A program made the translations under genes and the position numbers. A stretch of DNA of 64,000 nucleotides from Fervidicoccaceae archaeon (lineage in GTDB: Archaea > Thermoproteota > Thermoprotei_A > Sulfolobales > Fervidicoccaceae). The stretch spans positions 62,001 to 126,000 of the forward strand of contig JAVZVD010000002.1 in assembly GCA_038878695.1 (NCBI GenBank), given 5' to 3'. The notes beneath the pieces are model-generated. The model was not told where the DNA came from. It ran no database searches and was given only the letters and a program-made list of their open reading frames with translations. Each line of letters starts with the position of its first letter. Positions within the stretch are counted from its first letter, which is position 1. This document shows, in pieces, positions 36,545 through 44,488 of the stretch.

Positions 36545-37315
36545 ATGCTACGCGCAGTGAGAGTGGGTCGAGGGCTAGCCGAGTTGCCGCTCCACATTAG
36601 AGCCTCAAGGGATCAAGTGGCCGAGAGAGCCGTGATCTGCGGAGACCCGGCTCGCGTCAGGCAGATAGCCTCGATGTTAGACGGCGCGAGGCTCGTCAAC
36701 GAGCACAGAGGACTAATCACGTACACTGGGAACTACAAGGGGGTCCCGATAACCGTGGCGACGCACGGCATAGGGGGGCCCTCGGCCGCTTTGGTGGTCG
36801 AGGAGCTCGCTCAGCTCGGCGTGAAGACCTTCGTCAGGCTGGGGACCGCCGGAGCGCTGGTCGAGGAGCTCGACGCGGGGGACGTGGTCGTGGCCAGCGG
36901 GGCCTTCCACAGGAGCGGCGGGCTCTTCTCGCAATACATCGGAGAGGGGGTCTGCGCCTCCGCCGTACCGAACTTCGAGCTCACGAGGAGGATCGTCGAG
37001 GAGCTCGAGAGGAGAGGAGTAAAGCACGTCGTGGCCCCCGTGGTCAGCAACGATGCCTTCTACGCGGAGAGCGAGGAGTTCGCCAAGTGGTGGAGCTCGA
37101 GGGGGGCGGTGGCCGTCGAGATGGAGGCCGCGACTTTATTCGCGGTCGCGTCTCTCAGGAGGCTGAGGGCCTCAGCCGTGTTGATAATTTGCGACTCACT
37201 GGTCAGGGACCTGGGCTTTCTCACGGCCGAGGAGCTCAGACCCTACGTGGAGAGGACGGCCTCGGCGGTCCTAGAGGCCTTGGCTAGAGAGAGGTCTCGG
37301 AGAGAGGGGGCTTGA
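36545..37315 (+). CDS. purine/uridine nucleoside phosphorylase (PNP/UDP family)
   Basis: 256 residues. Conserved ERAVICGDPARVRQIA phosphate loop, VATHGIGGPSAALVVEE, RLGTAGAL, DAFYAESEEF and AVEMEAATLFAVASL, with the ICDSLV motif. This is the trimeric/hexameric PNP-I family (uridine phosphorylase, PNP or crenarchaeal methylthioadenosine phosphorylase); the substrate needs assay. Nucleoside salvage in the cytoplasm. ATG start. It ends in an overlapping TTGA with the next membrane-protein gene. Confidence 0.88.
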   Translation: MLRAVRVGRGLAELPLHIRASRDQVAERAVICGDPARVRQIASMLDGARLVNEHRGLITYTGNYKGVPITVATHGIGGPSAALVVEELAQLGVKTFVRLGTAGALVEELDAGDVVVASGAFHRSGGLFSQYIGEGVCASAVPNFELTRRIVEELERRGVKHVVAPVVSNDAFYAESEEFAKWWSSRGAVAVEMEAATLFAVASLRRLRASAVLIICDSLVRDLGFLTAEELRPYVERTASAVLEALARERSRREGA

Positions 37316-38490
37316 GCTCGGCCGAGCGCGAGGAGCCCCAGCGCTTCGGCGTGCGGCTCGCCAGAGCCGCGGCTCCGCCGATAGTGATCGGCTCGCTCTC
37401 GGCGATCGTCGGAGTGGCCATCTCGCCCTTCAGCGTCTACCGCCACATGGTCCTCGTGGCTACCTCCGTGGCCTCTTTCGCCCTGGCACTCTACATGGTC
37501 TCGGCCGGGGGATTCAGGAGGCTCGAGCGATGGGAGGGACTCGATGGGCTTCTCGTCGCGTCTATAGCCTCTCTCCTCCTCGTCGCTCCTCCTCTCAGCA
37601 TACTCGACGCGAGAGCCGGCGAGGCCTCTCTAGCGGCCGCGTCGGCGCTCTTCGTCGTCTTGGCCCTGCTGGCGGTGCGGCAGGAGAGGCCCCTGCTGAG
37701 GTTCGTCGTTCTCTACCCCGTCGTGGCGCTCCTAGCGGTCCTGGCGCTCGACCTGGCGGTCGAGAGCTTCTCCCTCGTCGAGTTGCTCCTGCTCTACGCG
37801 TATGCCCTCATGACTCCGATGATAACTGGGGTCAGCCTCTACGGGGTCGCGGAGACTTTCGGGGCAAAGCTCACGCTCCCAAGAGTCCTCGCGGTCTACC
37901 CGCTCAACGCGCTTGGCCTGACACTCGCGGTCCTCGGCGAGGGGCTCGGTTACGTCGCGCTGGCCCTCTCGACCTTGACCCACTTCGTCGCCGTCGACCT
38001 GAGAGGGGCCTTGAGGCTCTTGACCGAGGCCAGAAAGAGGGGGGGCCTCTTCTACGGGACCGCGAGGCTCTTGGTGCTCGGCTATGTAGCGGCCCTCGTC
38101 GGCTCGATCTTGACCGTGTATTGGTCGGTTCTCCTGGCCTCCGGCGAGAGCGGGGCCCTCTTCCCTATGGTTCACTCGCTATTCATAGGGTTCGTCGGGG
38201 GGCACATCTATGGGCACGCGGCAATAAAGCTGCCCCTCACGCTCGCGCTGAAGCCCTCTAGGAGGTTCAGGCCAGCCGGGCCAGCCTGCATGGCCGGGGC
38301 CGCTGCGCTCTGGCCGCTCTCGGGGGAACTCTCTCTCCTCCTGGTCCTGAGCTCGCTGGTCCTCTTGTTCCTGGAGCTCGACTTAAGAGACGCGGCGGCC
38401 AAGCTCCTCGGGCTCCGCTCGTTGCCTCCGAAGGGCCGATCATCTCCTCACGAAGATAGCCGAGCCCGCTACGGCGGTCGCGACGACTAG
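37312..38490 (+). CDS. multi-helix membrane protein with conserved His motif, NnrS-like
   Basis: 392 residues, about 12 membrane helices. The striking stretch PMVHSLFIGFVGGHIYGHAAI (positions about 284-304) resembles the HAxFLGFVFSMIFGHA helix of an uncharacterised membrane family related to NnrS and haem-copper-like proteins. The three histidines could bind haem or metal. The last 25 residues overlap the antisense anchor remnant. TTG start overlaps the stop of the phosphorylase gene, so the two are cotranscribed, though no shared pathway is obvious. Confidence 0.6.
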   Translation: MSSAEREEPQRFGVRLARAAAPPIVIGSLSAIVGVAISPFSVYRHMVLVATSVASFALALYMVSAGGFRRLERWEGLDGLLVASIASLLLVAPPLSILDARAGEASLAAASALFVVLALLAVRQERPLLRFVVLYPVVALLAVLALDLAVESFSLVELLLLYAYALMTPMITGVSLYGVAETFGAKLTLPRVLAVYPLNALGLTLAVLGEGLGYVALALSTLTHFVAVDLRGALRLLTEARKRGGLFYGTARLLVLGYVAALVGSILTVYWSVLLASGESGALFPMVHSLFIGFVGGHIYGHAAIKLPLTLALKPSRRFRPAGPACMAGAAALWPLSGELSLLLVLSSLVLLFLELDLRDAAAKLLGLRSLPPKGRSSPHEDSRARYGGRDD

Positions 38491-39888: not shown

Positions 39889-41409
39889 TCATCTATGCGG
39901 AGGCCCTCGGTGACCTCCGCCGCCCTTCTCCTCGATCTCCTCGAGCGACAGGCCGGCCTGCTCCAGCAGGTCTTCCGCCGCCCCGACCATGACCTTGGCC
40001 CTCTCGTAGGATATCCACGTCGCCAGCCTGGCTACCTCGCGCGGCTCCACGAGCTCGCGCAGCCTCTTCTCGGTCTCGTTCTTCCCGAGGCCCGGCTGTA
40101 TCTTCTCGAGCGGCAGGAAGGAGCGGGCCAGCTCGGACTTTGCGTTGTTGAGCAGCCAGAGAGCGACGTGGAACTTCGTCACGGCCTCCGAGTCCGTGCT
40201 CTTTGCGGGCCCGCGCGCGCCGCGCATCAGCTCGTGCATGTAGCTCATAGCGGCTTCTCTGAGGGAGTCTATCCTGGCCGCGAGCGAGGCCGCATCGTCG
40301 ACCAGCCCGAGCGCCTTCTCGGCCAGGTAGCCCCCGAGCTCCGGGTGCTTGAGCCCTAGGGCCTTGACCTCCTCATCTACCCTCTCCATGAAGGCCCTGG
40401 CCTTACCGATGAGGGAGAAGAAATCGCCCTCCCCGGCCGTCGCTGCCGACAGGTTGCTCGACAGCTCCTCGGCCTCGCTCAAGATCGAGCTCAGCCTCGC
40501 CGCCGCCTCGGTGAGGTTGTTCTCTACGGCGAATTCTCTTAGCTCCCTCAGCACTTCCGCGACGGCCTCTAGCTCGTCTATGGTCTCGTTGACGAGCACC
40601 GCTCTCGTGACGTCGAGCGCTACGCTCACCGACACGTTGGCCGGGATGCCGATGGGGGTCACGTTGGCGACCACCGCCTTGGCGGCCCTCAGGGTCTCTC
40701 GAGCCGCGCTGACTCTCTGGAGGGCCTCGTCAACGGCGTTTATCGCGCTCTCGGAAGCGTTGAGCGCCCTGAGCCTCCCGAGGACCTCCGCCAGGACCTC
40801 CTCCGAGCGCGAGACCTCCTCTTCGGCCCTCTCGAGGCCCTCCACCTCCAGCCTCTCCCTCTCCTTGATCATCTTCTCCACCGTCTTCTCCGCGTGCTCG
40901 CCGAGGCCTTGCCCGAGCCTGATGGCGCTATGAGTCTCGATCTCCGCTCTGCGCCTCTCGAGGCGCTGCTTTAGCTCGCCCAGACTCTTGGCTTCCAAGA
41001 CCTCGGAGGCGGCGCCGACGGCCCCGGTCTTGTTCAGCCTCTCGGCGACCTTCTCACTCATCTTCTTGACGACGACCTCGGGAGGCGTCAGGGCCTCTCC
41101 TCTGACGTTGGCCCTCAGCTCGGCCACCGCTTCTCTGAGACGGTCGACGTACTTCTCCAGGTCCTCTCCGCTCAGCGAGGTCGCGTTGACCGACAAGAGC
41201 TCCCGGATCCTCTGCATCTCCTGCCCGCTCACGTTGGAGACTTGGAGGAGGCGGGCCACGCAGTCCTGGTAGAACATCGCCGCGCTCCTGAGCTTCTCCT
41301 CATCTGGGGGACTCGCCTGGGCCCAGACCGCCGCCGAGGCCGCGCTCAGCAGCAGGACCGTGACGAGGGCGAGGGCCCTGATCCTCTCGAGTCTCATTCC
41401 TCTTCGCAC
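39889..41409 (-). CDS. secreted coiled-coil protein
   Basis: 506 residues. Signal peptide (about 10-32, ALALVTVLLLSAASAAVWAQ) and then almost continuous helix with heptad character (KQRLERRRAEIETHS, EKMIKERERLEVEGLERAEEE), several Asn-x-Ser/Thr sites and a His/Gly-rich tail (GGGGHRGPPHR). No enzyme motif. It is probably an extracellular or pseudoperiplasmic structural or sensory protein. ATG at about 27 bp from a bidirectional TATA box, so it may be leaderless. Divergent from a membrane-anchored winged-helix protein that could be its regulator. Confidence 0.7.
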   Translation of the reverse strand: MRRGMRLERIRALALVTVLLLSAASAAVWAQASPPDEEKLRSAAMFYQDCVARLLQVSNVSGQEMQRIRELLSVNATSLSGEDLEKYVDRLREAVAELRANVRGEALTPPEVVVKKMSEKVAERLNKTGAVGAASEVLEAKSLGELKQRLERRRAEIETHSAIRLGQGLGEHAEKTVEKMIKERERLEVEGLERAEEEVSRSEEVLAEVLGRLRALNASESAINAVDEALQRVSAARETLRAAKAVVANVTPIGIPANVSVSVALDVTRAVLVNETIDELEAVAEVLRELREFAVENNLTEAAARLSSILSEAEELSSNLSAATAGEGDFFSLIGKARAFMERVDEEVKALGLKHPELGGYLAEKALGLVDDAASLAARIDSLREAAMSYMHELMRGARGPAKSTDSEAVTKFHVALWLLNNAKSELARSFLPLEKIQPGLGKNETEKRLRELVEPREVARLATWISYERAKVMVGAAEDLLEQAGLSLEEIEEKGGGGHRGPPHR

Positions 41410-41430
41410 CCGCGCGTAGCTGCGAACTCG

Positions 41431-41440
41431 TTATAAATTA
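41431..41440. promoter_or_regulatory. bidirectional TATA element
   Basis: TTATAAATTA reads as a TATA box in both directions; the divergent starts are at 41409 (about 26 bp) and 41494 (about 58 bp, with GGAGAGGAG before it). One element probably serves both genes. Confidence 0.55.
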
Positions 41441-41493
41441 AGAGGAGCGCGAAACATCCTCGGAACGCCGGCGAGAAGAGGAGAGGAGCCCCC

Positions 41494-42330
41494 GTGCTGT
41501 TCGCGGCGATCGCGCTGGTTCTGGCCCTGGGGGCCGGGGCACTCGAGATCTCCATCGACGAGGACGGGCTGGCGCACGCGCGCCTGGTCCTCGAGAGCTC
41601 GCCGGGCCTCAACTCGGTTAAGCTCCCGGCTAGGCCCCTAATCGGCACGATGACGGTCTCGATCGAAGGGTCCGAGACCGCGGCACTATACGACGACGAC
41701 ACGAGGACCCTGTACTTCCTGGCCCCGTCGGGCGGCCGAGCCGAAATGACGTACCTCGTGGAGATCTCGACCGAGGGGCTCTTCTACCGCTTCGACGTGG
41801 AGGACAATGTGACGTTCAGGCTCGCCGCCGCCCCCAACGTGATCCTAGTCGACGTCGAGGGGTTCCTGGAGTTTTCGCGGAAGCCCAACGGCTGGATCGA
41901 GCTCCTGCTGACCGGGCCCCTCACGGTGAAGTACGCGGTGAGAGCTCCGGCCCCTCATCCCAGTCCCACTCCTTCGCCTACTCCCACCGTCTCGCGGAGC
42001 TCCTCCTCGATAGCGCTGGTCGCCGCGATCGCGGCGACCGGCGGGGCGGCGGCCTACGTCGTCCTGAAGAGGAGAGCCCGAGGAGCCGAGGAGGAGCCCG
42101 GCGTCGAGCTGGTCGGCGAGGCGCTTACGGACGTAGACCACGAGATCCTCAAGGCGCTCGAAGAGCGGGGAGGAGCGGCGCTTCAGAGCGAGCTCTACAG
42201 GGCCCTCGGTCTACCGAAGACCACCGTCTGGAGGCACGTCAGGAAGCTCGAGAGGCTCGGCTACGTGGAGCTGATGAGGAGGGCTGGCACCTCGACCGAG
42301 GTGAGGCTCAGGAGGACGAAGCGAGACTAG
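41494..42330 (+). CDS. membrane-anchored winged-helix regulator with extracellular domain
   Basis: 278 residues. Signal/anchor at 1-17, an extracellular beta-rich domain (about 18-152), a Pro/Ser/Thr linker (HPSPTPSPTPTVS), a membrane helix (about 172-192) with KRRARG after it, and a cytoplasmic C-terminal winged helix (about 205-278: DHEILKALEERGGAALQSELY, KTTVWRHVRKLERLGYVEL). This is a one-component transmembrane transcription factor, a layout known in archaea. GTG start with a good ribosome site. It shares a promoter with the secreted coiled-coil gene, which is its likely target. Confidence 0.78.
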   Translation: MLFAAIALVLALGAGALEISIDEDGLAHARLVLESSPGLNSVKLPARPLIGTMTVSIEGSETAALYDDDTRTLYFLAPSGGRAEMTYLVEISTEGLFYRFDVEDNVTFRLAAAPNVILVDVEGFLEFSRKPNGWIELLLTGPLTVKYAVRAPAPHPSPTPSPTPTVSRSSSSIALVAAIAATGGAAAYVVLKRRARGAEEEPGVELVGEALTDVDHEILKALEERGGAALQSELYRALGLPKTTVWRHVRKLERLGYVELMRRAGTSTEVRLRRTKRD

Positions 42331-44104: not shown

Positions 44105-44488
44105 TCACCCGGCTCCCAGCTTTTTCGCCTGGAGCTTGATCTGCCTCGCCTGTTCCTCGATGAATCGAGCGAGCAGGGCTCTCAGCAGGTCGCTCCTGTT
44201 CCCGAACTTGAGCTTGAGTACGAGCTCGTCCAGCTTAGCGAGCGTGCGCTCATCCAGCTTGAACGTGATGGTCTTGTGAGGCGAGCACGACATGAGGAGG
44301 AGCCTCTCCTTCTCGAGGCTCAGGTCTTGGCGGTCGGGGTCGCTGAGGGCTTTGTCCACGAGGTGCCTGAGGAGATGACTCCTTGACGCGAAGCCGCTCG
44401 CTCTCCAGGCCGCCTCGAGGCTCTTGTAAGTCTCCTCGTCGACTCTGAGAGACACGGTCCTCTTCTCGAATATATCGATGATTATCAC
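44105..44488 (-). CDS. tandem ribbon-helix-helix DNA-binding protein
   Basis: 127 residues containing two similar RHH units: TVSLRVDEETYKSLEAAW with SRSHLLRHLVDKAL (about 10-48) and TITFKLDERTLAKLDELV with NRSDLLRALLARFI (about 71-113). RHH proteins normally dimerise to make the DNA-reading sheet; two units in one chain could form it alone. Ser/Thr and Arg at strand positions fit DNA contact. ATG start. It converges on hsp20, which may be one of its targets only by proximity. Confidence 0.8.
   Translation of the reverse strand: MIIIDIFEKRTVSLRVDEETYKSLEAAWRASGFASRSHLLRHLVDKALSDPDRQDLSLEKERLLLMSCSPHKTITFKLDERTLAKLDELVLKLKFGNRSDLLRALLARFIEEQARQIKLQAKKLGAG

Follow-up and report, generated by a model that had tools for sequence, protein, structure and literature searches.

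To our knowledge, Thermoproteota are largely devoid of two-component histidine kinases, and signalling from the cell surface to genes in these archaea is poorly known. In bacteria, regulators of the ToxR/ToxS, TcpP/TcpH and CadC type cross the membrane once and carry a sensor domain on the outside, and some of them have a co-encoded outer partner. One-component transmembrane transcription regulators (TTRs) have been reported in Thermoproteota in the census of Demey et al. 2023 (PMC10269533). ArnR and ArnR1 of Sulfolobus acidocaldarius are membrane-bound one-component regulators. In ArnR, the HTH is located at the N-terminus and two membrane helices at the C-terminus, and the protein also has a HAMP-like and sensing domain; the ArnR boxes at flaB, TCGAC-N5-GTCGA, are located upstream of BRE/TATA, within -43 to -84 (PMC6396743).

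The window analyzed here is a stretch of 64,000 nucleotides from the 1.11 Mb genome of a Fervidicoccaceae archaeon. It contains two divergent neighbouring genes: MTF, a membrane regulator gene (41494..42330, + strand; ORF of 278 aa with a GTG start), and CC, the gene of a secreted all-helical partner (39889..41409, - strand; ORF of 506 aa with a signal peptide, starting at the GTG at 41409 or at the in-frame ATG at 41397). ToxR/ToxS, TcpP/TcpH and CadC are generally known to have an N-terminal DNA-binding domain, bacterial transcription machinery and a membrane-bound partner, in contrast to the large secreted partner of MTF. Like the TTRs, MTF combines a DNA-binding domain and a membrane-spanning region in one chain; however, the MTF family, with its C-terminal winged helix and outer beta domain, is not described in the accessible part of the TTR census, and the secreted helical partner gene and putative operator that are conserved with MTF go beyond it (PMC10269533). 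Like ArnR and ArnR1, MTF is crenarchaeal, membrane-bound and one-component, with candidate sites upstream of BRE/TATA. Unlike in ArnR, the winged helix of MTF is C-terminal, and there is one internal membrane helix in addition to the N-terminal signal/anchor; the sequence TCGAC, by reading, is absent from 41410-41493, and a linked secreted helical protein is not described for ArnR in the accessible part of that report (PMC6396743). TTRs as a class and ArnR are already known, and the MTF-CC pair was not found described in the open literature, although a description may exist elsewhere.

The GTG start of MTF is preceded by GGAGAGGAG at a distance of about 5 bases. The AlphaFold2 model of MTF (41-row alignment, mean pLDDT of 85.8 for the whole protein) gives the following order, all on the + strand: (i) a hydrophobic N-terminus (signal/anchor); (ii) an outer beta domain, residues 16-149 (41539..41940, pLDDT ~97); (iii) a Pro/Thr/Ser linker of low confidence, residues ~150-172; (iv) a single membrane helix, also evident from hydropathy, residues ~173-195 (42010..42078; 174-195 in the model), which is followed by the basic KRRAR and is conserved among MTF relatives; and (v) a cytoplasmic winged helix, residues 211-272 (42124..42309, pLDDT ~96). 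The winged helix matches Pfam HTH_24 at 1.4e-9, and MarR_2 and its relatives as well. The domain architecture read from the letters in an earlier note is borne out. VIA-align, whose matches to MTF cover the winged helix only, aligned it to 9u7b_A with Z of 11.8 and rmsd of 2.3 over 71 residues, and MarR-like and ArsR-like folds scored close to these values. The recognition helix, PKTTVWRHVRKLERLG, is of the W type in the helix alignment. The family comprises 123 full-length homologues; a DNA-binding domain is recognisable by Pfam in 41 of 41 relatives, and the winged helix of 32 of the 41 members matches DUF7343 (PF24034) at E <= 0.01. The window MTF scores 25.1 bits against the DUF7343 cut-off of 27.6, the match being confined to the winged helix. 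No papers on DUF7343/DUF7345 or COG2512 were found in the open literature. A 477-residue protein encoded in the same genome outside the window (L010 1462-2895; G000:C2 near 156710) carries, by eye, a PAS-type sensor and an MTF-like terminal winged helix.

The beta domain was assessed by Foldseek alone. The best matches of the MTF model are M1 aminopeptidases (E of 4.6e-5, TM-score over the query of ~0.3), and the likeness is taken to be with their N-terminal beta domain (e.g., 3chp), an assignment guided by the portion of the model that consists of beta strands. The outer domain of the model thus bears a resemblance to that domain and is not credited with more. An M1 aminopeptidase itself was rejected: the 278 residues, by reading, contain no HExxH, they are too few to house the catalytic domains, and they match no Pfam peptidase family.

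The product of CC was described in the earlier note as a secreted coiled coil of 506 residues. That it is secreted and helical holds, but one long coiled coil is a less safe description: the AlphaFold2 model (mean pLDDT 73, pTM 0.57) is all-alpha with ~17 helices of 8-42 residues, and "secreted helical protein" is therefore the safer name. For the window CC, Pfam gave nothing at E <= 0.01, and Foldseek with its model gave nothing at E <= 0.001; VIA-align reached Z values of at most 10.5, against helical bundles of no evident relation to it, and these were not taken as kinship. Within the CC family, Pfam matches are weak, scattered and restricted to one member apiece. It should be noted that "secreted helical" denotes a composition rule (secreted, Gly/Pro-poor, >=350 residues), not a homology call, yet most CC proteins are linked by phmmer: the window CC finds that of L116 at 3.3e-21 along with those of other loci, and 43 of the 48 CC partners form one linked cluster, with those of L078, L081, L088, L089 and L110 outside it. 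Close members share an N-terminal block around NVSxLSxxEL in the alignment. The C-termini of two CC proteins (L015 9295-10635, KGVVLQYNN...; L090 4187-5815, KGIVISINQ...) resemble a small beta domain, an end that the window CC does not have. Two other genes of the window can be mentioned here: 37312-38490 (+) encodes a 392-residue protein that has ~10 membrane segments and matches no Pfam family even at E <= 1, and 44105-44488 (-) encodes a protein of 127 residues whose single chain contains two CopG-like stretches of the ribbon-helix-helix kind.

Relatives of MTF were found throughout the order and class of the window organism; a search of named genomes (14-row alignment) identified them in Ignisphaera, Pyrodictiaceae, Wolframiiraptor, Geothermarchaeum and Thermocladium. 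Among the 43 loci of an initial set, secreted helical proteins were encoded by 28 genes directly beside MTF, compared to 4 genes in all further positions as far as offset 8. In the enlarged set, slightly biased by a few loci that had been obtained via CC, 46 of 79 MTF genes (<=50% identity), from several classes of Thermoproteota, adjoined a secreted helical gene; the remaining 33, some of them at contig ends, had none adjacent under the criteria used. Secreted helical genes occupied 46 of 151 adjacent slots versus 4 of 351 at offsets of 3-6 genes (Fisher P 3e-22); the MTF-CC pairing is not a matter of chance. The CC profile matched 40 of 398 genomes of the phylum, and in the reciprocal test, starting from CC, 13 of the 20 loci fetched had an MTF-family gene as the neighbour of CC. 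One half of the disproof named in the earlier note, that the two genes are never neighbours elsewhere, is false. The divergent arrangement that this note had singled out is found in 11 of the 46 linked pairs, the others being MTF->CC (19), CC->MTF (14) and convergent (2), and the MTF tree contains at least 10 orientation changes with linkage kept. Thus, it is the adjacency that is conserved and not a common promoter. The ORF starts used in these comparisons are those of the longest open frames, simply trimmed, and some are wrong, most clearly that of the W pair of L109. At L085 and L086, a secreted helix-poor protein of ~190 residues is encoded between MTF and the helical gene.

The gap between the two genes of the window is 84 bases long (41410-41493). 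As the earlier note had stated, a TATA element lies between the starts: TTATAAATTA at 41431-41440, with its centre ~26 bases from the GTG of CC and ~58 bases from the start of MTF. The TATA region of CC (41431..41442, - strand) reads CTTAATTTATAA on that strand and is the sole evident TATA element for the gene on the + strand, too. Scans for sigma-70-like promoters and terminators gave nothing, which is expected because the host is an archaeon. Beside the TATA element are two putative operator half-sites that the earlier note had missed, both members of the predicted conserved operator described below: a proximal GTTTC (GAAAC on the + strand; 41451..41455, - strand), proposed from sequence and spacing, and 11 bases from it a second one, GTTCC (GGAAC on the + strand; 41462..41466, - strand). 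Read towards CC, the window has GTTTC GCGCTCCT CTTAATTTATAAC, which is the layout of the relatives, and the spacing GTTTC-N8-CTTA agrees with theirs as well. The window has a single GRAAC-N6-GRAAC (0.17 expected), and the genome as a whole has two, the second pair being elsewhere. Two GRAAC sites in the gap correspond to a shuffle p of 0.04, and neither of them is a full TGRAAC; taken alone, these candidate sites are weak evidence. They are few, and the place of the window in the operator set rests on the pattern of the family.

In the relatives, aligned divergent gaps show repeated GAAAC/GGAAC. Fourteen divergent gaps contain 47 GRAAC/GTTYC sites versus 9.5 +- 2.9 in dinucleotide shuffles (maximum of 21 in 500), a count that includes data in which the motif had been noticed. 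Less circular are the results for L175 and L176, which were fetched after the element had been spotted (each with 4 sites, where 0.56 and 0.75 would be expected), for control promoters and for Y-type loci. Operator counts refer to the 130 bases that precede CC, in a set of CC proteins made non-redundant at 60%. For 29 W-type loci, TGRAAC/GTTYCA before CC was found 55 times compared to 3.9 +- 2.0 in shuffles, with TTTCCC at the level of chance, whereas 139 other upstream regions of W loci had 11 TGRAAC versus 9.3. Of 36 W-like loci, 12 had the combination GTTYC-N7-10-CTWA, compared to 0.34 in shuffles. The distances from half-site to TATA peak at 8-9, 20-21 and 30-31 bases, a periodicity that would be expected if the sites share one face of the helix beside BRE/TATA. 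The conserved feature is a predicted operator just upstream of the CC TATA box.

In one family, the operator is unique within the genome: the exact triple repeat GAAAC-N7-GAAAC-N4-GAAAC occurs without mismatch once per genome in seven of seven genomes of family f9, always before the MTF-CC pair, and three matches with one mismatch lie elsewhere. In family f6, GGAACNGTTCC is at the MTF-CC promoter in four of the six genomes that hold it; the other two have the match elsewhere.

The element also indicates which of the two genes is addressed. In tandem MTF->CC pairs, it is found in the gap before CC and is mostly absent before MTF; GRAAC before MTF is merely twofold enriched over all loci, and an unbiased 7-mer comparison upstream of MTF gave mixed motifs, since tandem loci carry the element before CC. 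These observations bear on the version of the earlier note, in which a symmetric common promoter places both genes, as a unit, under the control of the tethered winged helix. Divergent pairs do have the array between the two starts, where it could serve both, and the window has a single evident TATA element; however, with only 11 of 46 linked pairs divergent and the tandem element before CC, we consider this version improbable, and the symmetric promoter falls as the essential point of the proposal. Given the same two facts, the dedicated target would be the CC gene. The wider idea of a two-gene module from the outside to DNA gains support, as conservation of the pair extends well past this genome and the CC-promoter element matches the type of the winged helix.

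This match was seen in two types of loci. W-type recognition helices (PKTTLWRH) go with GTGRAAC repeats, and Y-type helices (PKTPLYRR) with TTTCCC repeats. In 14 Y-type loci, one of which (L061) was mis-typed by the script and is really W, TTTCCC, a motif spotted in Y loci prior to counting, was found before CC 16 times versus 2.4 expected, with TGRAAC at chance. When helices were aligned, the combinations were W with GRAAC (24 cases), W with TTCCC (2), Y with GRAAC (0) and Y with TTCCC (12). This is a concordance rather than proof, because only ~2 switches on the tree are independent, too few for a tree-based sign test of helix versus operator to reach significance. The loci L108 and L109 each hold one W pair and one Y pair: their Y pairs have TTCCC, and GTTCC arrays precede CC in the W pair of L109 and in L107, a close relative of L108. 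At L109, a stretch of 12.8 kb holds both MTF-type regulators, one W and one Y, as well as two genes of secreted helical proteins. We judge it quite probable that the winged helix of MTF binds the predicted CC-promoter element.

The element is also kept where the pair is not intact. It is present at L164, where the neighbour of CC has no winged helix, and at L155-L159, where the MTF gene is unlinked; in 11 loci with an unlinked CC (Ignisphaera-like) or a winged-helix-less partner, TGRAAC was found 9 times versus 1.1. In the Ignisphaera-like genomes with unlinked CC, GAAAC/GTTTC before CC is kept and a full MTF is encoded elsewhere. Such loci could suggest that the element is bound by a soluble regulator of surface proteins with no relation to MTF and that MTF acts on something else. 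We regard this as improbable, since the element changes along with the type of recognition helix, the single exact match per genome in all seven f9 genomes speaks for a regulator that is local and dedicated, and most genomes with unlinked or winged-helix-less partners encode full-length MTF members elsewhere.

The winged-helix-less proteins are informative about the surface half of MTF. Seven distinct homologues with a beta domain and a membrane helix but without a winged helix adjoin CC (family f25; extra gene at L061 and L062), and one further homologue of this kind, L213, is not adjacent to CC by the criteria used. At L061 (6946-7863) and L062 (8845-9747), the winged-helix-less protein is the product of a third gene beside CC, and in genome G005 the CC neighbour likewise lacks the winged helix in raw translation. 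The surface half of MTF therefore stays linked to CC where the DNA-binding half is missing. This suggests that it touches CC outside the cell and hence that the outer domain binds the CC protein; for this binding, we see about even chances. CC itself is the leading candidate for what the outer domain senses. The same proteins (f25, G005, L061, L062) would fit a pair that is chiefly a surface structure, with the beta-domain protein anchoring or capping CC and the winged helix playing a minor part or reporting assembly to other genes, and so would the N-glycosylation sequons of many CC proteins and genome G006, which has a full MTF and no helical neighbour. This explanation appears unlikely, if somewhat less so than the common promoter or the soluble regulator, because the recognition helix is intact and well conserved in most family members and the CC promoter carries a matching operator.

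Taken together, we consider it likely, with good though not full confidence, that MTF, as a transmembrane one-component regulator, does its sensing at the cell surface and controls CC, probably as an activator. The beta domain of MTF would face the outside, where it would probably contact CC; the cytoplasmic winged helices would bind phased half-sites of the GTGRAAC type directly upstream of the BRE/TATA of CC; bound MTF would most likely activate CC; and the amount or state of CC may feed back on CC transcription. The conservation of the predicted operator is indirect support for MTF altering transcription from the membrane.

Many archaeal winged-helix proteins are repressors, and MTF could bind the element and repress CC instead. 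However, the proximal half-site ends ~8-9 bases upstream of the start of TATA, with further sites running upstream, and the ArnR boxes, which are needed for flaB promoter activity, are likewise upstream of BRE/TATA (PMC6396743). Predicted sites that abut the BRE from upstream suggest activation, which we hold to be the rather more probable sign of regulation; repression appears doubtful. Feedback on the CC protein is a tentative reading. Slightly more tentative is the full scenario of an ancient dedicated circuit of Thermoproteota, in which the tethered winged helix would read the amount or assembly of CC via beta-domain contact and drive CC from a cognate operator, two subfamilies having switched helix and operator together.

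The architecture, the linkage, the CC-promoter element, its TATA spacing, the uniqueness in one family and the agreement with helix type were computed here. The MTF-CC pair, which many heat-loving archaea carry, has the look of a hitherto undescribed way in which a single protein connects the cell surface to a gene. With a family this widespread, and with its target and operator predicted, the surface-to-gene question in Thermoproteota becomes testable, as the site, the target and the mutants can be named beforehand. The family would also offer an initial clue to a large group of secreted helical proteins of no known function.
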